Made by a program: the position numbers and the translations under genes
Shown: positions 34,427 through 48,137 of the stretch, in pieces
Numbering within the stretch: position 1 is the stretch's first letter
Layout: each line of letters starts with the position of its first letter
The notes under the pieces: model-generated
Seen by the model: only the letters and a program-made list of their open reading frames with translations
Told to the model about the DNA's origin: nothing
The model's database searches: none
DNA from: Rhodospirillaceae bacterium
GTDB taxonomy: Bacteria > Pseudomonadota > Alphaproteobacteria > UBA8366
Reading direction: 5' to 3'
NCBI GenBank assembly: GCA_002724395.1
Contig: PBOR01000040.1
Span: 1 to 64,000 of the forward strand
DNA: 64,000 nucleotides

Positions 34427-34523
34427 GGAGGCGTAACGTTACCCGGTGGTGCGCTCGGTCTTCAAAACCGGTGAGGGATGTTAAGCCGTTCCTGGTGGGT
34501 TCGACTCCCACACGCTTCCGCCA
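34427..34523 (+). tRNA. selC: tRNA-Sec (anticodon TCA)
   Basis: 8-bp acceptor GGAGGCGT/ACGCTTCC, anticodon loop TCTTCAAAA, long variable arm, GGTGGGTTCGACTCCCAC T-arm, encoded CCA; directly after selAB. Confidence 0.93.
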
Positions 34524-34593: not shown

Positions 34594-35148
34594 ATGGCTC
34601 GCATCCCCTATCCCGATTTGTCCAATGCTTCTAAAGATGTCCGCGATTTAGCTGAGCGGATTGAGCCGATGCTCAATATTTTTCGTATGTTGCCGCATGC
34701 GGAAAGTGCCTTTTACGGGTTCATGAAATTTGGTAATTCGCTGCTCTTGAAAACGCAGATAGATCCCATTTTACGCGAGATTATGATTTTGCGTGTTGGT
34801 CACTTATCCCGTGCGAATTATGAAATTCATCAGCATGAAAAGATTGCGGCACATGTAGGAATGTCCTTAGCTAAAATAGCGGCAATAGCAGGAGATAGGG
34901 AATCTGAAGTGTTTAGTGAAGTGGAGCGCTTGGTGCTTCGTTTTGTCGATGAAGTGGTGGAAGGTGTAAAAGCGACAAATGAGACATTCGATGCCCTATC
35001 TATACATTTTAATCATCGTCAGTTGAACGAAGCGGTCCTAACGATCGGTTTTTATATGATGGTTTGTAGATATCTCGAGAATTTCGAGATTGAGTTAGAA
35101 GACGAAGGGAACGTCGATCCAACATTGAATATCGACGGCTGGAAATAG
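34594..35148 (+). CDS. Carboxymuconolactone decarboxylase / AhpD-like family protein
   Basis: LREIMILRVGHLSRANYEIHQHEKIA; FYMMVCRYLENFEIELED; AGGA before ATG 34594; no CxxC motif. Confidence 0.75.
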   Translation: MARIPYPDLSNASKDVRDLAERIEPMLNIFRMLPHAESAFYGFMKFGNSLLLKTQIDPILREIMILRVGHLSRANYEIHQHEKIAAHVGMSLAKIAAIAGDRESEVFSEVERLVLRFVDEVVEGVKATNETFDALSIHFNHRQLNEAVLTIGFYMMVCRYLENFEIELEDEGNVDPTLNIDGWK

Positions 35149-35150
35149 CC

Positions 35151-36395
35151 GTGACCAACAGAGATGATCACAGAATTCTGCAAGATATTCGTGTCCTAGA
35201 CCTCACCCAATATTTCTCTGGGCCGTTGGCGACGCTTTACCTTTCTGGTCTGGGTGCTGAGGTTATCCGCGTGGATCCGCCTACCGGTGATTTATCCTCA
35301 GATACACCTCTCTATGCTGGGCCTGAAGGCGTCTCAGTGGAGCGGAAAACGGAAGACGATATGGGAGCGGTATTTCTAAAAAGGTGCCGTGCAAAGAAAG
35401 CTATTACTCTCAATCTCAAGAGCGAAGAAGGTAAATTACTTTTTTATCGGCTGGTAGAAAAATCCGATGTTGTGGTGGATAATTTCAGTGTTGGGGTGAC
35501 CAAACGCCTGGGGGTCTCATATGAGACACTTAGAGAAATTAATTCACAGATCGTTCAATGCGCCATTACAGGCTTTGGTTTAACGGGCCCGGACGCGGCT
35601 AAACGTTCTTACGACGTTATTGCCCAGGCCATGTCGGGCCTAATGAGTATTACCGGCGAACCTGGCGGTAAAGCAATGAAAGCCGGGTCACCGCTTGCTG
35701 ATTCGATCAGTGCAAGTTTTGCACTGTCGGGTATTCTAGCAGCATTATTTCATCGCATAAGGACGGGTCACGGACAGCTTGTCGATATCTCTATGGTCGA
35801 TTGCCTGTTTTCATTAATCTATGACGACCCATTGGAGGCTTATGATCAGTTGGGTATGACAATGCGACAGGGAAATCGAATTCCGCGATTTTCACCATTT
35901 AATGTTTATGAAACCCAGGATGGTGAGATTGTTATTGGTACTAGCAATAATGAAATGTGGCGTAAATTGACGGAGGTTATGGGCTGTCAAGAGTTGGCGA
36001 CCGACAATGATTTTGGCCGTACCGCGTGGCGTTTAGAGAATAATGACATAGTAGATGGGGTGGTTGAGGCGTGGTCAAAAACATGCTCAACCCAGGAAGC
36101 ACTTGCTAAGCTTGAAACGGCTGGGATTCCATCGAGTGCGATACCTGATATTCATGCGATTAAAGGATCGCGGCAAATGCAAGCGCGCGGGATGGTTACA
36201 CCGCTTTTACATCCAACAATTGGGCCGTTACCAGGCTTAGCTGCAGCTGGTTTTCCGATCAAATTTAGCGATTCTGAGACAGGCTATGACGGCCCAGCCG
36301 TAAGAGCAGGCCAACACAATAACGAAATTTTTGGCAAGCTGCTTGGCATAATTGATGAGGACATTAATCGACTTAAAGATGCCGGCACCATTTAG
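35151..36395 (+). CDS. CaiB/BaiF family CoA-transferase
   Basis: DIRVLDLTQYFSGPLATLYLSGLGAEVIRVDPP; SYDVIAQAMSGLMSITGEPGG. Confidence 0.9.
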   Translation: MTNRDDHRILQDIRVLDLTQYFSGPLATLYLSGLGAEVIRVDPPTGDLSSDTPLYAGPEGVSVERKTEDDMGAVFLKRCRAKKAITLNLKSEEGKLLFYRLVEKSDVVVDNFSVGVTKRLGVSYETLREINSQIVQCAITGFGLTGPDAAKRSYDVIAQAMSGLMSITGEPGGKAMKAGSPLADSISASFALSGILAALFHRIRTGHGQLVDISMVDCLFSLIYDDPLEAYDQLGMTMRQGNRIPRFSPFNVYETQDGEIVIGTSNNEMWRKLTEVMGCQELATDNDFGRTAWRLENNDIVDGVVEAWSKTCSTQEALAKLETAGIPSSAIPDIHAIKGSRQMQARGMVTPLLHPTIGPLPGLAAAGFPIKFSDSETGYDGPAVRAGQHNNEIFGKLLGIIDEDINRLKDAGTI

Positions 36396-36590: not shown

Positions 36591-38123
36591 TTATTGCTTT
36601 CCTGACGGCCCTACAGAAAGTGGGTCTGGTTTCGACCGGGTTGTTTGCCATATGCGGATTGATATCACCAAAATTGCGAGCGACATGAAAAACATGGCCA
36701 GCGGTCGTTCGAGAAAGATCATCGGTCCATCGTTATGAAGCAATAGCGCTTGGCGTAATGCTCTTTCCGCACCTGGCCCTAAGATAAAAGCAATGATGAA
36801 AGCCGGTAGGCTGTAATCAAATTTTTTAAAGAAATACCCTACGAAGCCAAAAAGAAACATCATTGCGACGTCGAATAATGTATTGCGCAGTGCGTAAACT
36901 GCTACAACCGACGTCAAGAAGATGAATGGATAAATGACACGCATGGGTAGTTTTGCCATCGCTCTACCAATAATGCCACTACCCCAATATCCCATTATGA
37001 AGTAGGTCACTATACAAAGAAGGCCCGATGCGAACAGACCATAAATTGTATCTCGTTCTTCAACGAATATGCGCGGCCCAATATGCATTCCGTGAATTAG
37101 AAAAACACCCCCTAGGAGGGCTGCTGCGACGCTACCGGGAATGCCAAGCGTTAAGAGGGGGATAATATTAGCACCCGAAACCGAGTTGTTTGCAGCCTCC
37201 GCGGCTGCAACACCTTTTATTTCTCCTTTACCCCAATTGTCGTCGGGAGCTGCTGACCGTCGTGCCTCGGCGTAGGCCACGAAGCATGCCGCCGATGCAC
37301 CGACACCAGGTAGCATGCCGATGATGGTGCCCATGCCGGTTGATTTGGCCATGACGGGGAAGCAGTACAGGAGTTCCCTCAATGTCACATAATTATCTTC
37401 AGGTTTCTTTGATCGCTTGGACATCATTCGCTCTGAGCCAAGAGACCCACGGTCGGCAATTTGAACGAAAACCTCTGAGCAAACAAAGACGCCAAGAAGG
37501 ACGGGCACGAGGCCAATACCTGTCTCTAAGTAATTTACATCGAAAGTAAGCCGGGGCAATGAACTGATCGGATCCAGCCCGATAATGGCCAGCATAATGC
37601 CCAAAACCGTGCTGATTAAACCGCGCATTACTGACGAGCCTATAACGCTGCCGATGATCACGAAGGCGGTGCAGTAAACCGCAAAAACCTCGGGCGGCCC
37701 CATACGTGCGGTGTAGATTGCAATGAACGCTGCGCCAAAAATCAATAGGCATTCGGAGAATAGATCACCGGCGGCAGACGCGATTACCGCCATCTTAAGG
37801 GCTTTACCTTGTTTACCCTGCCGTGTGAGCGGATACCCTTCTATTTGTGTAGCAGACGCCTGCGGCGTGCCCGGCGTATTGAAAAGGATCGCTGGAATGG
37901 AGCCGCCAAAACTGGCTGATTTACCTATGGTATAGACGAAAATCAGCGCAGATAGTGGTTCAAGGTAGAAAGAAAGTGGTATAATCATCGAGATAGCTGC
38001 GGAAGCTGTTAAGCCGGGTGTGGCGCCTGCAAGGAGGCCAACAGTCGTGCCCAGAATGGCATAGAATATTGCCCAACCACTGCTAAACAGTGTCACAATT
38101 CCATCGAAAATGGGGTGATCCAT
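36591..38123 (-). CDS. tctA: Tripartite tricarboxylate transporter large permease (TctA)
   Basis: GATPGLTASAAISMIIPLSFYL, GSIPAILFNTPGTPQASATQIEGYPL. Confidence 0.92.
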   Translation of the reverse strand: MDHPIFDGIVTLFSSGWAIFYAILGTTVGLLAGATPGLTASAAISMIIPLSFYLEPLSALIFVYTIGKSASFGGSIPAILFNTPGTPQASATQIEGYPLTRQGKQGKALKMAVIASAAGDLFSECLLIFGAAFIAIYTARMGPPEVFAVYCTAFVIIGSVIGSSVMRGLISTVLGIMLAIIGLDPISSLPRLTFDVNYLETGIGLVPVLLGVFVCSEVFVQIADRGSLGSERMMSKRSKKPEDNYVTLRELLYCFPVMAKSTGMGTIIGMLPGVGASAACFVAYAEARRSAAPDDNWGKGEIKGVAAAEAANNSVSGANIIPLLTLGIPGSVAAALLGGVFLIHGMHIGPRIFVEERDTIYGLFASGLLCIVTYFIMGYWGSGIIGRAMAKLPMRVIYPFIFLTSVVAVYALRNTLFDVAMMFLFGFVGYFFKKFDYSLPAFIIAFILGPGAERALRQALLLHNDGPMIFLERPLAMFFMSLAILVISIRIWQTTRSKPDPLSVGPSGKQ

Positions 38124-38145
38124 GACTTGCTATGTCCTTTATGAT

Positions 38146-38706
38146 TTATACGCCCATGAGTTTTCGCAACGTACCGAATATGTAAAAATTGTCATATTCC
38201 CATAAAGCGCCGCGTGGCTCGGATAAGCGTAGGATGCCAAAAAAGATGATGTAATAAATTGTCATCGAAACAGTCGGGATGATGACTAGCCATTTTACGC
38301 CCCTGTTCCCAAACAAAGCTAAAGTTGCCGATAAACACAGAATTGACGGTATTAAATATTGAAACAAATTCATAAGGCCCAAGTAAGCAAATGCTATCAT
38401 TGACATAGGCAATACCCATCCGACGAACAGGTTTAGTTCGTGGGGTAGATTTGCAATTTGGCGGCCTAGAACGGTTAGAGCTTCCAGTTGCATTGGTTCG
38501 GAATTCTCCTTCCGCATTACGAAGAAAGATGAAATTACGAACCCTACAGTGAGCGCCAACAACGTGATGCAAACGCTGAGTGGAAATGTATCGGGGTCCA
38601 TTCCGTGGCCGAATGGGTCTTCCTCAATCCTAAAAACTTGGATGAAGAAAACTAGCGTTACCACCAGCATAACGAGACCCGAAATAAAATTATTACGTGC
38701 CGACAT
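38146..38706 (-). CDS. tctB: Tripartite tricarboxylate transporter small permease (TctB)
   Basis: Four-TM 186 aa protein between tctA and tctC. Confidence 0.82.
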   Translation of the reverse strand: MSARNNFISGLVMLVVTLVFFIQVFRIEEDPFGHGMDPDTFPLSVCITLLALTVGFVISSFFVMRKENSEPMQLEALTVLGRQIANLPHELNLFVGWVLPMSMIAFAYLGLMNLFQYLIPSILCLSATLALFGNRGVKWLVIIPTVSMTIYYIIFFGILRLSEPRGALWEYDNFYIFGTLRKLMGV

Positions 38707-38801
38707 ACTCTGATCCTGCCGAAATCAAATGTCTAAAATTTAGTGCTGCAAAGAAAAGCGGGATGATTGCTACGCAACCACCCCGTATCTCGATTAGAAA
38801 C

Positions 38802-39770
38802 CTATTTTTTATTTTTCTTGCTAGCGGCTTTTAGCTCATTAATTAAGGGATCCCAGCTCTTGGCGAGACCTTTGTAGTAGGTTGACGTTGCCGGACCAGC
38901 TTTGTACTTCGCAGGCAGACCAGCCTTTTTAAGCAATTTTCCGTATGCTTTATGGCTCGTCATTTTTTTGCAAGATGCGTCTAGAGCAGCAACTCGCTTA
39001 TCGGACACACCCTTTGGTGCCATGATGATCATCGGCGTAAACACTTCAAGTAGCTTGAGTCCTTGCTCTTTAACCGTCGGAATTTTTTTATTGTTGGGGT
39101 CGCGCTCGGGGTAGATAAGCCCAAGGGCTTTGACTTGATCCTGGAAGCCATTGATCAGATGAACACCGATTACAGAAAAATCAACTTGTTTGCCGATCAA
39201 AAGGCCACGTGCGGGGGAGCCACCTTTTGCCGGGACATCAACGGCTTTCATGCCATTACGTTGAGTAAAGGCTAGGCCGGCGATACCCCAAGTGCTGGTT
39301 CGACCTGGTGTGGAATAACGCATTTTGCCTGGATTGGCTTTCACATGATCTACCAGTTCCTTGGCAGTTTTGAACTTGCTATCTTTATGAACAAAAACCG
39401 CAGGTAGTAGGCGGCCGACCATGCAAACGATTTTAAAATCTTTAAATGGGTCAACAGGCGCTTTGCGGAACTGGGTTGAGAAATAGAATGAACCGCCTGA
39501 TGCAAGATAGAGCGTGTAACCATCAGGCTTGGAATCAGCTACATATTTGGCGGCAGGGACACCAGAACCACCAGCCTTGTTGACAATAATCATCGGTTGA
39601 CGACCAATATATTCAGGCGCCACACTAGCAAGAGCGCGAGCATAAGAATCTGTACCACCACCCGCTCCAAAGCCTACAACAAGTGTGATGGGTTTCTCCG
39701 GAAATGCTGCGAATGCGGGCGATGCTAATGTTGCAATCGCGCCAGCAGCGATAAGCTTTTTGAAATTCAT
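38802..39770 (-). CDS. tctC: TTT transporter substrate-binding protein (Bug/TctC)
   Basis: Signal peptide MNFKKLIAAGAIATLASPAFAAFPEKPITLVVGFGAGGGTDSYAR. Confidence 0.88.
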   Translation of the reverse strand: MNFKKLIAAGAIATLASPAFAAFPEKPITLVVGFGAGGGTDSYARALASVAPEYIGRQPMIIVNKAGGSGVPAAKYVADSKPDGYTLYLASGGSFYFSTQFRKAPVDPFKDFKIVCMVGRLLPAVFVHKDSKFKTAKELVDHVKANPGKMRYSTPGRTSTWGIAGLAFTQRNGMKAVDVPAKGGSPARGLLIGKQVDFSVIGVHLINGFQDQVKALGLIYPERDPNNKKIPTVKEQGLKLLEVFTPMIIMAPKGVSDKRVAALDASCKKMTSHKAYGKLLKKAGLPAKYKAGPATSTYYKGLAKSWDPLINELKAASKKNKK

Positions 39771-39971
39771 AATATTCTCCCTGTACCAATACGAAATAAA
39801 AAAAGTATTTTTATGCGGCAACGGCATTCGTAACCCCTTGACCGCTTGCCGAAGATCCTAGCATAGAGGCTTGATGGTTTGCTAGGGGAAGATTCTAGCT
39901 ATGATAGGGCCAATTTGGCAGCAAACCAGCCGATGGCGATTAACAGTTTGAACGAATGAAGGGAACCAAAA

Positions 39972-40953: not shown

Positions 40954-41856
40954 ATGCATATAGATAAATCCGCCATCGCTTTTGAAGCCGCTCTGTTGGA
41001 TGAGGCATTGGTGCATCATACGCCTTGCGGCGATGGGTACATGGTTTGGCATCAGTGGGGCGAGGGACCACCACTAATTATGTTACACGGAGGATCCGGA
41101 TCATGGCGCCATTGGGCGCTCAATATCCGTTTCTTAGCACAGTATTATACTTTATATGTAGGTGATTTGCCCGGTTTGGGTGATTCTGCCGATCCGCCGA
41201 TCCCCTTTAGCGTGGACGATTTTCCGGGATCGGTTGATCACCTAGCCGAAATAACCTGTGTGGGCATTGAAACGCTCTTACCCTCAGGGTCATCCTTTAA
41301 AATATTAGGGTTTTCTTTTGGTTCTATTACTGGCGGGTATGTGGCGGCACGTATGCAAGATCGCACTGAACATTTGGCATTAGTGGGGCCAGCGTCGCTT
41401 GGTTTGCCTTGGGGTGGGCTTAAAGGACATCGTAAATCACCGAAATATGCAAAAAATGAAACAGAGTTAAAGGAATTTCACCGTCATAATCTGCATCTTG
41501 TAATGTTTGGTGATTCGGCAAATATTGATGATCTTGCGCTGCATTTGCAAATTCAGTGCGTTACCCGAGCTCGCCTCCGAAGTCACCGCATATCTGGAAC
41601 CGATACATTGCTTCTGGCTCTAAAGCGCCTGGAGGTGCCGTTCAGCGCGGTTTGGGGTGCCGAGGACGTCTATTCCTTGCCGAATATCAAATCCCGGTCA
41701 GTCCTGATGCAGACAATACGCCCGGAGGCGGACTGCCGGATAATTGACGGAGCGGGCCATTGGGTGATGTATGAGGCTGCTGACGAATTCAATGCCACAA
41801 TTTTGGAGCAATTAGGCGGAATAGAACTGAAGAAGGCCCATAAAGAGATCAGTTGA
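40954..41856 (+). CDS. Alpha/beta hydrolase, tandem paralogue 1
   Basis: MLHGGSGSWRHWALNI; nucleophile GFSFG; VWGAEDVYS; GAGHWVMYE. Confidence 0.88.
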   Translation: MHIDKSAIAFEAALLDEALVHHTPCGDGYMVWHQWGEGPPLIMLHGGSGSWRHWALNIRFLAQYYTLYVGDLPGLGDSADPPIPFSVDDFPGSVDHLAEITCVGIETLLPSGSSFKILGFSFGSITGGYVAARMQDRTEHLALVGPASLGLPWGGLKGHRKSPKYAKNETELKEFHRHNLHLVMFGDSANIDDLALHLQIQCVTRARLRSHRISGTDTLLLALKRLEVPFSAVWGAEDVYSLPNIKSRSVLMQTIRPEADCRIIDGAGHWVMYEAADEFNATILEQLGGIELKKAHKEIS

Positions 41857-41863
41857 GGAAAAG

Positions 41864-42697
41864 ATGGAAGCCGAAGAATATTTAAAAATGGTTGAAGCGA
41901 AGGCGGAGGTTAGAACATCGTCTTGCGGTGATGGTGAAATGATCTGGCATGTTTGGGGCGACGGCGAGCCTTTGGTGTTCTTCCATGGTGGTTTTGGTAG
42001 CTGGCTGCACTGGATAAATAACATCGAATATTTCGCAAAACATTTTCAGGTGATTTGCCCGGACATCCCTTGCCATGGCGATTCAGCCCTAGCGCCTGAG
42101 CCCCATGATGCGCCAAATATTAGTAAAATTCTCTCTGATGGGTTGGACCACATTCTAACGCCATCTGCAAAACTCAGGCTTTGTGGTTTTTCATTTGGCG
42201 GTATCATGGCGGGCAATGTGGCCGTCTGGCAGGGTGATCGCGTTCACAAATTAATAGTAGTTGGTTCCAACGGTTTAAATTGCACCAAAGGTCCGGTTTC
42301 GGGCCTCAAGGACTGGCGTAAGGCGGAGAATGAGGAAGATCGTTTGGCCTGTCACCGTCGCAACCTAGAAGTCATTATGTTCGCCGACGCAGACCGGGTA
42401 GATGATGTCGCGATTTGTTTGCAAGATAAGAACACCCGCCGGTCGCGAATGAAATCGCGCCAAATCGCTAGTACTCCTGCCTTGCTAAATGCTTTGCCAA
42501 AGTTAAAAGGTAGGCTTTACGGCATTTGGGGTGAAAAGGACGTTTATGCAGAATTGTATATGGAAGAGCGTCAGAAAATTTTCCAAGAAATCCAGCCGGG
42601 TTGCGATTTCCGGGTAATCAATAATGCGGGTCATTGGGTACCTTATGAATCGCCTAACGAATTCAATCCAATGGCCCTGGAAATGTTGAAGGGTTGA
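41864..42697 (+). CDS. Alpha/beta hydrolase, tandem paralogue 2
   Basis: FFHGGFGSWLHWINNIEYF; GFSFGG; IWGEKDVYAE; NAGHWVPYE. Confidence 0.88.
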   Translation: MEAEEYLKMVEAKAEVRTSSCGDGEMIWHVWGDGEPLVFFHGGFGSWLHWINNIEYFAKHFQVICPDIPCHGDSALAPEPHDAPNISKILSDGLDHILTPSAKLRLCGFSFGGIMAGNVAVWQGDRVHKLIVVGSNGLNCTKGPVSGLKDWRKAENEEDRLACHRRNLEVIMFADADRVDDVAICLQDKNTRRSRMKSRQIASTPALLNALPKLKGRLYGIWGEKDVYAELYMEERQKIFQEIQPGCDFRVINNAGHWVPYESPNEFNPMALEMLKG

Positions 42698-42704
42698 GCC
42701 CCAT

Positions 42705-43601
42705 ATGCTGACGGATAAGCAACAAAAACTATTGTCCGGGGGCGCTCCGCGCCTCGGTGAATCGGCCGAAAATTGCGTGAAGCGCTTTGAAGAATCGGCC
42801 GAAGTGTTTGAAACTCCCTGCGGTGACGGTAATCTAATTTGGCATAAATGGGGCGAAGGTGAGCCAATCCTCATGTTCCATGGCAATCATGGCTCGTGGT
42901 CGCATTGGATCCGCAATATCCCCGTATTATCTCAGCATTACGCGGTCTATTGTTCTGACGCACCGGGGCTTGGGGACTCAGCGCTGCCACCGGAACCTTA
43001 TAGTCTAGACGGTATTATCGATGCGCTCGCGCTTGGTATTAAGCAGATTGTACCAGCCGATGCGAAAATGCATGTGGTCGGTTTCTCCTATGGTAGTGCC
43101 ACGGCGGCAAACACCGCTTGGCGATTTGTTGATCGCGTTAAGACGCTCACGATGTGCGCATCAGCCCGCCTTACCGCGACAGCAGAGGTGAAACGTGACC
43201 TTCGCAGTTGGCGTCGTTTGGAAACACAGGAAGAACGCTGGGAAGCCCATAAGCATAATTTGAAGCAAATGATGATCTGTAAGCCGGAAATAGTCGATGA
43301 TTTGGCGGTGTATTTACAGAATTGGAATGCCCCACGTGCCCGTATCCGGACAAAGGAATTCATTCCTCGCGACTCTCTTTTAAAAGCATTGATTGCCATC
43401 AAACATATCCCGATCCGCAATATTTGGGGAACCGGTGACGCGTTCTATCCTCATTTCCTTAATAGCAAGGAGGAGCTGATCGACGGAAATAATATTAATC
43501 TCGATTTGAAAATCATTGACCAGGTTGGCCATTGGTCGCCATACGAAGCTTCCGAGCAAGTTAATGAATGGTTACTCGAGTGGTTCCGGTTATATGATTA
43601 A
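42705..43601 (+). CDS. Alpha/beta hydrolase, tandem paralogue 3
   Basis: MFHGNHGSWSHWIRNI; GFSYGS; IWGTGDAFYP; QVGHWSPYE. Confidence 0.88.
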   Translation: MLTDKQQKLLSGGAPRLGESAENCVKRFEESAEVFETPCGDGNLIWHKWGEGEPILMFHGNHGSWSHWIRNIPVLSQHYAVYCSDAPGLGDSALPPEPYSLDGIIDALALGIKQIVPADAKMHVVGFSYGSATAANTAWRFVDRVKTLTMCASARLTATAEVKRDLRSWRRLETQEERWEAHKHNLKQMMICKPEIVDDLAVYLQNWNAPRARIRTKEFIPRDSLLKALIAIKHIPIRNIWGTGDAFYPHFLNSKEELIDGNNINLDLKIIDQVGHWSPYEASEQVNEWLLEWFRLYD

Positions 43602-43610
43602 GGATATTTT

Positions 43611-44495
43611 GTGGGCGCTTTATACAAGGAATTAGAAGGCGGCGTTCCCCGCCCAGGAGAATCTCCAGAAGAGTGCGTGGCACGCATTCAAAATGCGGCT
43701 GAGAAAATCATTACACCGTGCGGCGATGGCGACCTCATTTGGCATGTGTGGGGCGAAGGCGAACCGTTGGTATTATTGCACGGCAACCACGGCAGTTGGA
43801 CCCATTGGATTAAGAATATACCGTTTTTTGCCGAGCGTTATCGGGTGCTTGTGCCTGATGCTCCGGGTCTTGGCAATTCGGCCGTACCGCCCGAACCGCA
43901 TACTATGGATGAGATGGCAGCAATCGTGAATGCGGGGCTTGATGTCATAATTCCACGCAAGGCTTTCCATATGGCGGGCTTTTCCTATGGCAGCACGCTG
44001 GGTGGCTATATGGCTATCAAACTAACTGGTCGGCTTAAGAGCTTCGGTATGATTGGATCTGCGCGCTTGACCGGCCAACGGACTATGGTTGAAGGGCTGA
44101 TCAATTGGAAACGTCTTGAGACGGAAGCAGAGAGAATTGAAGCCCATCGCCATAATCTCGGGGTCGTTATGCTGAGCGATAAATCTAAGGTGGATGATTT
44201 GGCCCTATATCTGCAGTGCAACAACGCCCCTCGGGCGCGGGTTAAATCTCATAAATTTGTGCGCCGTCTTACTTTGCCTGAGATCGTAAAAGAAATTGAA
44301 GCGCCGATTTGCGTTTATTGGGGTACGAAGGATCAATATTACCCTTTTTATCTATCGGCTTATGAAGAACAAATCACCGCTCGGCATATCAGCGTCGAGA
44401 CCGATACCATTGAAGGCGCAGGCCATTGGGCGAATTATGAAAGTACTGATGAGATGAACGCGAAACTAGCAGCCTTTTTTGAATCCAATGATTAA
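43611..44495 (+). CDS. Alpha/beta hydrolase, tandem paralogue 4
   Basis: LLHGNHGSWTHWIKNI; GFSYGS; YWGTKDQYYP; GAGHWANYE. Confidence 0.88.
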   Translation: MGALYKELEGGVPRPGESPEECVARIQNAAEKIITPCGDGDLIWHVWGEGEPLVLLHGNHGSWTHWIKNIPFFAERYRVLVPDAPGLGNSAVPPEPHTMDEMAAIVNAGLDVIIPRKAFHMAGFSYGSTLGGYMAIKLTGRLKSFGMIGSARLTGQRTMVEGLINWKRLETEAERIEAHRHNLGVVMLSDKSKVDDLALYLQCNNAPRARVKSHKFVRRLTLPEIVKEIEAPICVYWGTKDQYYPFYLSAYEEQITARHISVETDTIEGAGHWANYESTDEMNAKLAAFFESND

Positions 44496-44522: not shown

Positions 44523-47500
44523 ATGTATTTCGACCCGAAACTTTGGCCATTCACAAAAGGTGTGCGTTTGCGCATTGCCTCAGCGGTGTTAGTGGGCCTT
44601 CTGGCAGCCGCTGTCGGTATTGGTCGATTAGCGTTGTTGGGCTGGTTGTTGGGTCAGGTGTGGCGCGGCACATCCTTCGATCAATTGATTCTGCCCTTTG
44701 GCATTGTGGCTGCCATTATGCTGCTGCGCGGCTGGCTGGAATATTGGCGCAACATGGTTGCCCATAAAACAGCCTCTATTGTGCAGCTCCATATTAGAGA
44801 ATTGCTCTACAACAAGGTCGTCGAATTGGGGCCGGCTCATTTTAGTCATGAGCGAACCGGCGCAGTGATCGTCGCAATGATCGACGGCGTCGAGCAGTTG
44901 GAAACCTATTTTGGCCAATATATTCCGCAGCTCTGTATTGCGACGTTAACACCCATCGGCATTTTCGCCTTTGTTGCATTTCTCGATTTGCCGGTGGCCA
45001 GTGTCATGCTAGCCGCAGCCTTGGTGACATTGCTGGGGCCGCAAGTTTTTCATCGCATGGAGGGCGGCAATGCGCGTACGCGTTCAATAGCGTTCAAAGC
45101 GTTTGCTGCAGAGTTCCTCGATGCGGTGCAAGGCTTGGGTACGTTGAAAGCTTTTGGTCAAGCCAAGGCGCGGGCCAATGTGTTGGCGGTCAAGGCGCGA
45201 GACCTTTTGCGGAGTACCATGTGGGTACTGGCGACGAACCAGATTGCGCGTGGGTTGACCGATGCGGGCATCACTATCGGTGTGGCGGCCACATTGTCGC
45301 TCGGCGCTTACCGTTTGGTCGACGGTCAGATGTCCCTCACGGCGCTCCTGATGATCCTGATGATGGGTACCGAAGCCTATCGTCCGCTGCGGGAAATGCG
45401 TTCCATGCTCCATGCGGGCATGAACGGGCGTTCGGCTGCCGAAACCATGATGGGCTTGTTAGATGCGGAGCCGGTAGTGAAAGAGATGCCTGCCGTCACA
45501 TCGGCAGGTCCTCTGGAGCCGACCATTCAGTTCGATAATGTGAGTTTTGCCTATCCAGGCGCTCGGCGGCGGGCCCATGAGGGGCTCGATTTCACGGTGA
45601 AAAAAGGCGAACGCATTGGCGTTGTCGGGCCGTCTGGTTGCGGTAAGTCGACGGTGGTGAAGCTCTTACTGCGCCAGTACGACCCCACGTCGGGCACAAT
45701 CCGGCTGGGCGGTAAGGATCTACGGGATCTCAGTTTTGCCGATCTTCGCAGTCAGATGGCAGTGGTTAATCAGGACACCTATCTCTTTCACGGCACCGTT
45801 GAGGACAATATTCGTCTTGGCAAACCGTGCGCGACGGATGACGAGTTGCAGGCGGCAGCGAAATCCGCAAATGCCCACGAATTTATTGATCGCTTGCCGC
45901 AAGGGTATGAAACCGTCATCGGCGAACGCGGTATTCGGCTTTCAGGTGGCCAACGCCAACGTATCGCGATCGCCCGGGCACTGCTGCGTGATTCGCCGAT
46001 ACTCGTGCTGGATGAAGCGTTGTCGTCGGTTGATGCAGAGAATGAAGCGGTGATCCAAGATGCACTCGACCGATTGATGAAGGGCAGAACAGTACTGATT
46101 TTTGCCCACCGGCTTTCAAGTGTCATCGATGCTGACCGAATTTTGGTGTTGGAAGATGGCTGTGTCGCCGAAGAAGGCGCCCATCATAGTTTGCTTGCCT
46201 CAGCCGGCACCTATCATAAACTTATGGCGGACCAGGCGAATGAGTGGTCTGGTGGCGCTGCAGGTATCACTGATACACTTATCGAAGATAGCAAGGGCAG
46301 GCCGGCGGTCCTGGCGTCGGATGATGCTATTCGGTTGGCTGAAGGGGAAGCCGAACGCGAGCCGACCGACGCGATTTTACGCGCCGATAGTATGGGCTGG
46401 GCCGCGGTGTTTCGTGAACTGCTCAAGTTTTCTGGGCCGTGGCGTACGCAATTGACGGCGACCTTTATTTTGGGTGTCGCGCGGGTTTGCGCCTTTATCG
46501 GCGTGGGCGCTGTCGGGGCTTTGGCCGTTGGCGCGGTAAAGCGCGGCGAGCCGTTTGAAAATCTCTTGATTTGGCTGGCCGTTCTGGCGCCCGCGGCAGG
46601 AATTCTTCATTGGTTGGAAAGCTGGCTTGCCCATGATTTTGCGTATCGCATGCTGGCAGAAATGCGCATTCAGTTGTTTGAAAAACTGGAAGCACTCGCC
46701 CCGTCTTATTTACTGCGGCGGCGAACTGGTGACCTTGTGGGGATGGCGACCCAAGATGTGGAGACAGTAGAGTATTTCTTCGCCCACACCATCGCGCCTG
46801 CTTTTGTTGCCATCCTCGTACCGTCGGTGGTGTTCACCCTGTTGTTGGCTGAAGGGTGGTCATTGGCGTTGGCTTTGAGCCCGTTTCTTGTCTGGGTGGC
46901 GCTTAGCCCGTTCTTGATGCGAAAGCGGATCGATCGGTTGGCGTCTCGGGCGCGTGAAGTGTTGGGCAATCTTAATGCACACGCGGTGGATACGGTGCAG
47001 GGGTTAGCAGAAGTGGCGGCTTTCCAGGACGAGCGGCGACGGGGTCAGGATTTTCTTGCTAAAGTGCGCGAGCATCATTCGGTGCGGCTGCCGTTTTTCA
47101 GTGATATGACCGGTCAAATGGCGATGCTGGAGACGGCGACCGGCTTGGGTGGTCTCGCAGTGGTTATCACAGGTGCACATTTGGTCACCACGGGTCAGCT
47201 TGAGGCAACGACATTGCCGTTGCTGACGATCCTTGCCATGGCGTCGTTTCTGCCCATTTCCGAGATCGCCAATATTGGTCGCCAATTGGCTGACACGCTG
47301 GGCTCGACGCGCCGTCTTTATGCGGTGCATGGCGAGCCGGTGGACGTCACCGATGGCATCGGGGTGAACGCCCGCGCGAAACCCGGTGGCGTTACGTTGG
47401 CAATGGAGAATGTGTCTTTCCGTTATTACGGGCGCGCCGCCAGTGCGCTCCATAATGTGACGCTTGAAGTGCCCGCTGGCCAAACGGCAGCATTGGTTGG

Positions 47501-48137
47501 ACCCTCCGGTGCGGGGAAGAGCACGACCGCCCATCTGTTTATGCGGTTTTGGGACCCCGAAGCGGGTTCCGTCTCGCTGGATGGGCAGGATTTGCGCGAT
47601 TTTGAATTGGATGATCTACGCCAACGCATCGCCTTGGTTGCGCAGGATACGTATCTTTTCAATGACACGCTCAAAGCCAATATTTTGATCGCCAAGCCTG
47701 ATGCTACAGCTGAGGAAGTTGATGCAGCGGTGCAGCGCGCTGCATTATCAGATTTTGTCGCAACGCTGCCCGACGGTCTTGACGCGCCGGTCGGCGAACG
47801 CGGCATGCAACTTTCTGGTGGTCAACGCCAACGCGTCGCCATTGCTCGTGCGTTCCTGAAGGATGCCCCGGTGTTGGTGTTGGACGAAGCCACAAGCCAT
47901 TTGGATGCGGTTAGTGAGGCTGCGGTGCGTTCCGCGCTAGAGGACTTAATGGCTGACCGCACAACGCTAGTCATTGCCCACCGGCTTTCGACGATCCGCA
48001 ACGCGGATGTCATTGTTGTTTTGAAAGACGGCCAAGTGGCGGAAACAGGCACACATGAAGCGCTGGTCGCCAAAGGCGGCCTTTACGCGAAGCTGGTATC
48101 TCGTCAAATGTCCGGTGCGGAGAAGGTTGCAGAGTGA
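44523..48137 (+). CDS. Double-length ABC exporter (TMD-NBD-TMD-NBD, CydDC-like layout)
   Basis: 1204 aa; two Walker A (GPSGCGKST, GPSGAGKST), two signatures (SGGQRQRIAIARALL, SGGQRQRVAIARAFL), two Walker B/H-loop sets. Confidence 0.9.
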   Translation: MYFDPKLWPFTKGVRLRIASAVLVGLLAAAVGIGRLALLGWLLGQVWRGTSFDQLILPFGIVAAIMLLRGWLEYWRNMVAHKTASIVQLHIRELLYNKVVELGPAHFSHERTGAVIVAMIDGVEQLETYFGQYIPQLCIATLTPIGIFAFVAFLDLPVASVMLAAALVTLLGPQVFHRMEGGNARTRSIAFKAFAAEFLDAVQGLGTLKAFGQAKARANVLAVKARDLLRSTMWVLATNQIARGLTDAGITIGVAATLSLGAYRLVDGQMSLTALLMILMMGTEAYRPLREMRSMLHAGMNGRSAAETMMGLLDAEPVVKEMPAVTSAGPLEPTIQFDNVSFAYPGARRRAHEGLDFTVKKGERIGVVGPSGCGKSTVVKLLLRQYDPTSGTIRLGGKDLRDLSFADLRSQMAVVNQDTYLFHGTVEDNIRLGKPCATDDELQAAAKSANAHEFIDRLPQGYETVIGERGIRLSGGQRQRIAIARALLRDSPILVLDEALSSVDAENEAVIQDALDRLMKGRTVLIFAHRLSSVIDADRILVLEDGCVAEEGAHHSLLASAGTYHKLMADQANEWSGGAAGITDTLIEDSKGRPAVLASDDAIRLAEGEAEREPTDAILRADSMGWAAVFRELLKFSGPWRTQLTATFILGVARVCAFIGVGAVGALAVGAVKRGEPFENLLIWLAVLAPAAGILHWLESWLAHDFAYRMLAEMRIQLFEKLEALAPSYLLRRRTGDLVGMATQDVETVEYFFAHTIAPAFVAILVPSVVFTLLLAEGWSLALALSPFLVWVALSPFLMRKRIDRLASRAREVLGNLNAHAVDTVQGLAEVAAFQDERRRGQDFLAKVREHHSVRLPFFSDMTGQMAMLETATGLGGLAVVITGAHLVTTGQLEATTLPLLTILAMASFLPISEIANIGRQLADTLGSTRRLYAVHGEPVDVTDGIGVNARAKPGGVTLAMENVSFRYYGRAASALHNVTLEVPAGQTAALVGPSGAGKSTTAHLFMRFWDPEAGSVSLDGQDLRDFELDDLRQRIALVAQDTYLFNDTLKANILIAKPDATAEEVDAAVQRAALSDFVATLPDGLDAPVGERGMQLSGGQRQRVAIARAFLKDAPVLVLDEATSHLDAVSEAAVRSALEDLMADRTTLVIAHRLSTIRNADVIVVLKDGQVAETGTHEALVAKGGLYAKLVSRQMSGAEKVAE

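Follow-up and report, generated by a model that had tools for sequence, protein, structure and literature searches.

Four tandem serine-hydrolase paralogues conserved in three genera of one bacterial family

Why are four alpha/beta-hydrolase genes kept one behind the other, and what might they do together? The question was raised by positions 40954-44495 of a 64,000-nt stretch of DNA (the window, meaning the whole stretch analysed), for which an initial annotation had described four consecutive hydrolase ORFs. All four were present with the lengths and spacers given there:

40954..41856, + strand: AB1, alpha/beta-hydrolase copy 1, 300 aa
41864..42697, + strand: AB2, alpha/beta-hydrolase copy 2, 277 aa
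42705..43601, + strand: AB3, alpha/beta-hydrolase copy 3, 298 aa, HGN at the oxyanion-hole position
43611..44495, + strand: AB4, alpha/beta-hydrolase copy 4, 294 aa, GTG start, sister of AB3

The gaps AB1-AB2, AB2-AB3 and AB3-AB4 measure 7, 7 and 9 nt, respectively, and the products share 36-47% pairwise identity. Each of AB1-AB4 scored higher than the gathering thresholds of Abhydrolase_1 and Abhydrolase_6 and carries the catalytic triad; the four proteins are thus members of the alpha/beta-hydrolase superfamily and serine hydrolases, and are probably cytoplasmic. The closest non-array relative in the window's own genome was much weaker (28% identity). G+C content of the array (0.491) equals that of the window (0.496) and thus gives no hint that the genes were imported recently. 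The shared motifs described earlier were recovered overall, except that copy 2 reads SSCGDG instead of TPCGDG and copy 1 reads HWALNI instead of HWI.NI. Of the N-terminal pattern ascribed to copies 3 and 4, the part E[S/T]P.E...R also occurs in the third array-bearing genus (g2, see below) and, more loosely, in single-copy relatives, and is therefore probably ancestral. The part GG.PR was found in 0 of 93 non-array sequences, a weak negative because many of these start at the edge of the profile match.

The triads were intact in all four copies, as had been claimed, with invariant Ser (GFSFG or GFSYG), Asp (WGxxD) and His (GHW). In copy 4 numbering, Ser125, Asp241 and His272 were invariant in 117 of 117 sequences compared, as were Phe124, Trp273 and Glu277; Trp63, His65, Asn182, Gln202 and Arg210 were invariant or nearly so in the same set. 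The Asp nucleophile of haloalkane dehalogenases and epoxide hydrolases was absent from these sequences, all 117 of which have Ser. At the oxyanion-hole position, Asn replaces Gly (HGN) in copies 3 and 4, and the same exchange was seen in 4 of 93 non-array sequences. An AlphaFold model of copy 4, computed from a 64-row alignment, had a pLDDT of 94.1. In this model Ser125 stands directly after strand 119-124 and is followed by a helix, as expected of a nucleophile elbow, and Asp241 and His272 are placed after later strands, as the fold requires. Foldseek matches of the model reached E of about 1e-16. The four proteins are predicted to work, probably, as serine hydrolases shaped like HsaD, BphD and CumD.

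Conservation of the array was followed with a profile of the four proteins. Four-copy arrays were found in six genomes of three genera, all of family f1: G000 (the window's genome) and G001 in genus g1, G009 and G010 in g5, and G002 and G003 in g2. The array is therefore not an oddity of one genome, and the survey proposed for conserved multi-copy arrays in other genomes had a positive outcome. Single-copy homologues, which would have spoken against a conserved array, were met only outside g1, g5 and g2. Completeness is below 90% in every other f1 genome, and these carry one close copy or none; in families f3 and f4 of the same order there is one copy, or in some cases a pair that lies on separate contigs. 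One copy was present at 79 of the 80 best loci of named genomes, and the remaining locus (L078) is itself an f1 record. Across a sample of the class, the strict cut-off was passed by 27 genomes in addition to the window's own, with 1-4 copies that were never in tandem (the best six candidates per genome were scored). The hydrolase family as such is widespread, with at least 582 candidate loci in Alpha- and Betaproteobacteria. Seemingly fused or multidomain relatives in G037 and G038 (frames of 577-1304 aa) were discarded, as the match is confined to the C-terminal end; the rest of these frames is probably non-coding read-through in GC-rich DNA. A literature search for similar arrays returned nothing relevant.

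In a maximum-likelihood tree of 73 sequences, AB1 of g1, g5 and g2 clustered together (support 98/92), AB3 and AB4 were sisters (100/99), and each of the four g1 copies paired with its g5 counterpart. It follows that two copies or more, AB1 among them, already existed when the three genera diverged, and that AB3 and AB4 had separated before g1 and g5 did. The stepwise duplication suggested by the initial annotation is borne out by these groupings. The array genes form one side of a branch with weak support (36/81). Copies of g2 other than AB1 had no clear one-to-one orthologues, and a single clade of all eight g2 copies was neither rejected nor favoured (p-AU 0.096).

All four active-looking copies have been retained under selection. 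Between close genomes, dN/dS was 0.06-0.19 in 12 of 12 ortholog pairs, which indicates purifying selection, and the ranges by genus, over every copy, were 0.06-0.15 (g1), 0.07-0.19 (g5) and 0.09-0.16 (g2); neighbouring genes in g1 gave 0.03-0.10. Relaxed selection, which would have argued against retention, was thus not observed. Tandem arrays arise easily, and a recent neutral duplication in which not all copies are functional was weighed as an explanation; it is contradicted by these dN/dS values and by the 36-47% identity of copies that are kept in three genera, and we regard it as very improbable. Tight spacing, constant gene order in g1 and g5 and the joint conservation of all copies would also suit one hetero-oligomeric hydrolase whose subunits are held together for stoichiometry. 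Single-copy relatives, however, evidently work alone, and the lack of clear one-to-one orthologues in g2 beyond AB1 points the same way, so that such an assembly seems quite unlikely. If the copies diverged in specificity instead, this is not directly visible in the cap domain: the positions that are constant inside each of the four ortholog groups but distinguish one group from another show no enrichment there (4 of 79 cap positions versus 10 of 215 others).

The surroundings of the array in the window, from the upstream side, comprise the following features:

34427-34523: tRNA-Sec, between selB and the CMD/AhpD-like gene
34594..35148, + strand: carboxymuconolactone-decarboxylase (CMD)/AhpD-like protein, candidate member of the locus
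35151..36395, + strand: class III (CaiB-type) CoA-transferase, candidate member of the locus
36591-38123, - strand: tctA, tripartite tricarboxylate transporter, named from sequence, place and synteny
38146-38706, - strand: tctB, tripartite tricarboxylate transporter, named from sequence, place and synteny
38802-39827, - strand: tctC, tripartite tricarboxylate transporter, PF03401
39972..40883, + strand: NAD-binding dehydrogenase with DUF1932 C-terminal domain, 70 nt upstream of the array
44523-48137: fused CydDC/MsbA-like ABC exporter, 1204 aa, two membrane and two ATPase domains, matching CydD, CydC and MsbA models

The listed start of the CMD/AhpD-like ORF (34471) overlaps the tRNA-Sec, and the real start is probably 34594. 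Farther upstream follow the tRNA-Sec, selB and selA. The DUF1932 dehydrogenase was the most constant neighbour, on the same strand and 0.1-3.7 kb upstream of the array in 6 of 6 array genomes. The tctABC operon (36591..39827, - strand) is divergent from the array and conserved in g1 and g5; no TctABC was recognised in the g2 stretch read, which leaves g1 and g5 as the basis for linking the transporter to the array. Downstream of the array lie the ABC protein, an aldehyde dehydrogenase, an MmgE/PrpD protein and a gamma-glutamyltransferase. The ABC protein was dropped as a candidate partner: it is present in genus g4, in which the array was not found, and is therefore probably just a neighbour. 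The g4 dehydrogenase lies together with a sugar-acid-dehydratase-like gene of the enolase superfamily and, in G006, also with MmgE/PrpD and PrpF genes.

Gene order in g5 is that of g1, except that a UGSC selenoprotein gene and its partner replace the CoA-transferase gene. Read towards the array, the g2 locus runs partner, UGSC, PAS_5 protein, SMP-30 protein (opposite strand), DUF1932 dehydrogenase and glycosyltransferase-family-20 gene, the last of which stands between the dehydrogenase and the array; farther past the array come the ABC, aldehyde dehydrogenase and MmgE genes. Neighbourhoods of single-copy relatives vary. Class III (CaiB) CoA-transferases were near 17 of 80 loci and TctC-type receptors near 17 of 80, both as raw counts over clusters named by eye from sequence; such genes are typical catabolic partners. 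A scan for promoters and terminators gave no signal above shuffles.

A UGSC selenoprotein module thus stands at the array locus in two of the three genera (g5 and g2). In all nine loci read, UGSC-family selenoprotein genes (in-frame TGA) adjoin a gene for a partner of about 330-376 aa:

L061:4666-6354: UGSC and partner
L062:1832-3520: UGSC and partner
L059:556-2254: UGSC and partner
L060:17699-19405: UGSC and partner
L192:8465-10095: UGSC and partner
L193:9753-11307: UGSC and partner
L194:1622-3318: UGSC and partner
L195:7903-9510: UGSC and partner
L196:9465-11044: UGSC and partner

Scanning was confined to the partner of L061, which matched nothing in Pfam or NCBIfam at the thresholds used; the partner may be the second subunit of a selenoenzyme. 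Fusion of UGSC to an unknown domain has been noted before (PMC2398784), and a 2026 review lists UGSC among families with largely uncharacterised functions (PMC13188914). The CoA-transferase gene of g1 (35151-36395) and the UGSC pair of g5 (L061:4666-6354) take the same place in the gene order, and a swap of modules is possible. The window's genome has nine UGSC-family genes with one in-frame TGA each, and such genes were present in 11 of 11 f1 genomes versus 0 of 14 control genomes. Over 142 genomes, hydrolase family and UGSC co-occurred in 8, among 12 and 14 positives (p about 4e-7, a value that assumes the smaller sample to be contained in the larger and ignores relatedness). The coordinates compared for these genomes showed no close physical linkage, and neither UGSC nor partner stood at any of 79 single-copy hydrolase loci; an association outside family f1 was accordingly rejected. 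Within f1, the link gives a genomic context to selenoproteins of long-standing obscure function (PMC13188914).

Which bond the four enzymes cleave was approached by comparison with known hydrolases. By sequence, the closest solved structures were HsaD and BphD (1e-30, profile A3), and the top structural match of the copy 4 model was CumD (22-24% identity in the structural alignment). The array proteins share with all three the alpha/beta-hydrolase fold with cap, the Ser-His-Asp triad and the GHW motif, including the Trp after the catalytic His of meta-cleavage-product hydrolases (117 of 117). These likenesses favour C-C hydrolases of the meta-cleavage-product type, whose substrates would be vinylogous diketones produced by ring cleavage, either consecutive or related ones; successive C-C cleavages had been one of the examples given in the initial annotation. 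C-C hydrolases are marked by an Asn before the nucleophilic Ser (BphD Asn111) and a cap Arg that binds the substrate carboxylate (BphD Arg190). Both marks are missing from the array proteins, which are therefore not filed as C-C hydrolases: Phe precedes the nucleophile in 117 of 117 sequences (HsaD has GNSLGG), and VDQRFAL of HsaD aligns to VDD-LAL, with no Arg there, although it is in the cap that the alignment is least certain. All scores were far below the NCBIfam cut-offs for BphD and HsaD, and no ring-cleavage dioxygenase was seen among the scanned neighbours. C-C cleavage is accordingly considered unlikely. Enol-lactone hydrolysis in a scheme like that of PcaC/PcaD, with the upstream CMD protein and CoA-transferase, has in its favour those two genes in the window, CMD-like neighbours (recognised by eye from sequence) near some single-copy relatives, and the best NCBIfam match of copy 4, which is PcaDC of the same superfamily. 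Yet this match is far under its cut-off (70 versus 390 bits), as is the best score for the 3-oxoadipate enol-lactonase PcaD (TIGR02427; 54.8 versus 255.85 bits). The CMD protein adjoins selA, selB and tRNA-Sec and may be part of that group, g5 lacks the CoA-transferase at this position, and the class III enzyme of the window is presumably not of the PcaIJ type, which also counts against the scheme; it is held to be improbable.

A precedent, by analogy, for ester chemistry on an acid substrate may be offered by the monoalkyl phthalate hydrolases MphG1, MehpH and PatE, which cut monoesters of a dicarboxylic acid (PMC6164851). Like the array proteins, they are alpha/beta hydrolases with a Ser-His-Asp triad and no signal peptide. 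Compared by description, they differ in the motif around the nucleophile (GHSRG, in which the Arg that follows Ser binds the substrate, versus G-F-S-[FY]-G in the array), and they are not described as an array. In SAR202, expansions of enolase-superfamily and FMNO paralogues have been read as widening the range of organic substrates (PMC6946804); phylum and enzyme families are different there, and the four copies described here stand in one tandem array.

We favour, as somewhat more probable than all other readings together, a lineage-specific tandem expansion of serine hydrolases that diverged in substrate and serve a catabolic locus with TctABC. Most simply, the locus would serve the breakdown of organic acids or of the esters of such acids. 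Acids would enter through the divergent TctABC transporter and be processed in the cell by the DUF1932 dehydrogenase and the four hydrolases. Each hydrolase would attack an ester, lactone or activated carbonyl bond, with Ser as nucleophile, His-Asp as general base and an acyl-enzyme intermediate. One ancestral gene would have been duplicated stepwise, and the copies, diverging in substrate preference and not in chemistry, were presumably kept for different but related substrates. Such expansion of a catabolic hydrolase is of a known kind; this conserved array is unstudied, and its chemistry would be ordinary. The family appears uncharacterised, because no curated specific family fits above its cut-off. 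The "pathway core" of the initial annotation was drawn from context, and four paralogues acting on related substrates explain the data as well. A bolder reading makes the array the hydrolytic centre of a catabolic pathway not yet described, which ancestrally would also use a two-gene selenoenzyme (UGSC plus the partner, about 370 aa) and in which the four hydrolases would free related acids from conjugates imported by a dedicated transporter; it is considered unlikely. Assignment of one substrate would help to annotate the whole hydrolase family, and four natural paralogues are a ready-made set with which the division of specificity after tandem duplication can be tested.

At a separate locus of genus g2, two-copy arrays of more distant alpha/beta-hydrolase relatives were observed (G002:C30:79397-80962 and G003:C39:145890-147454).
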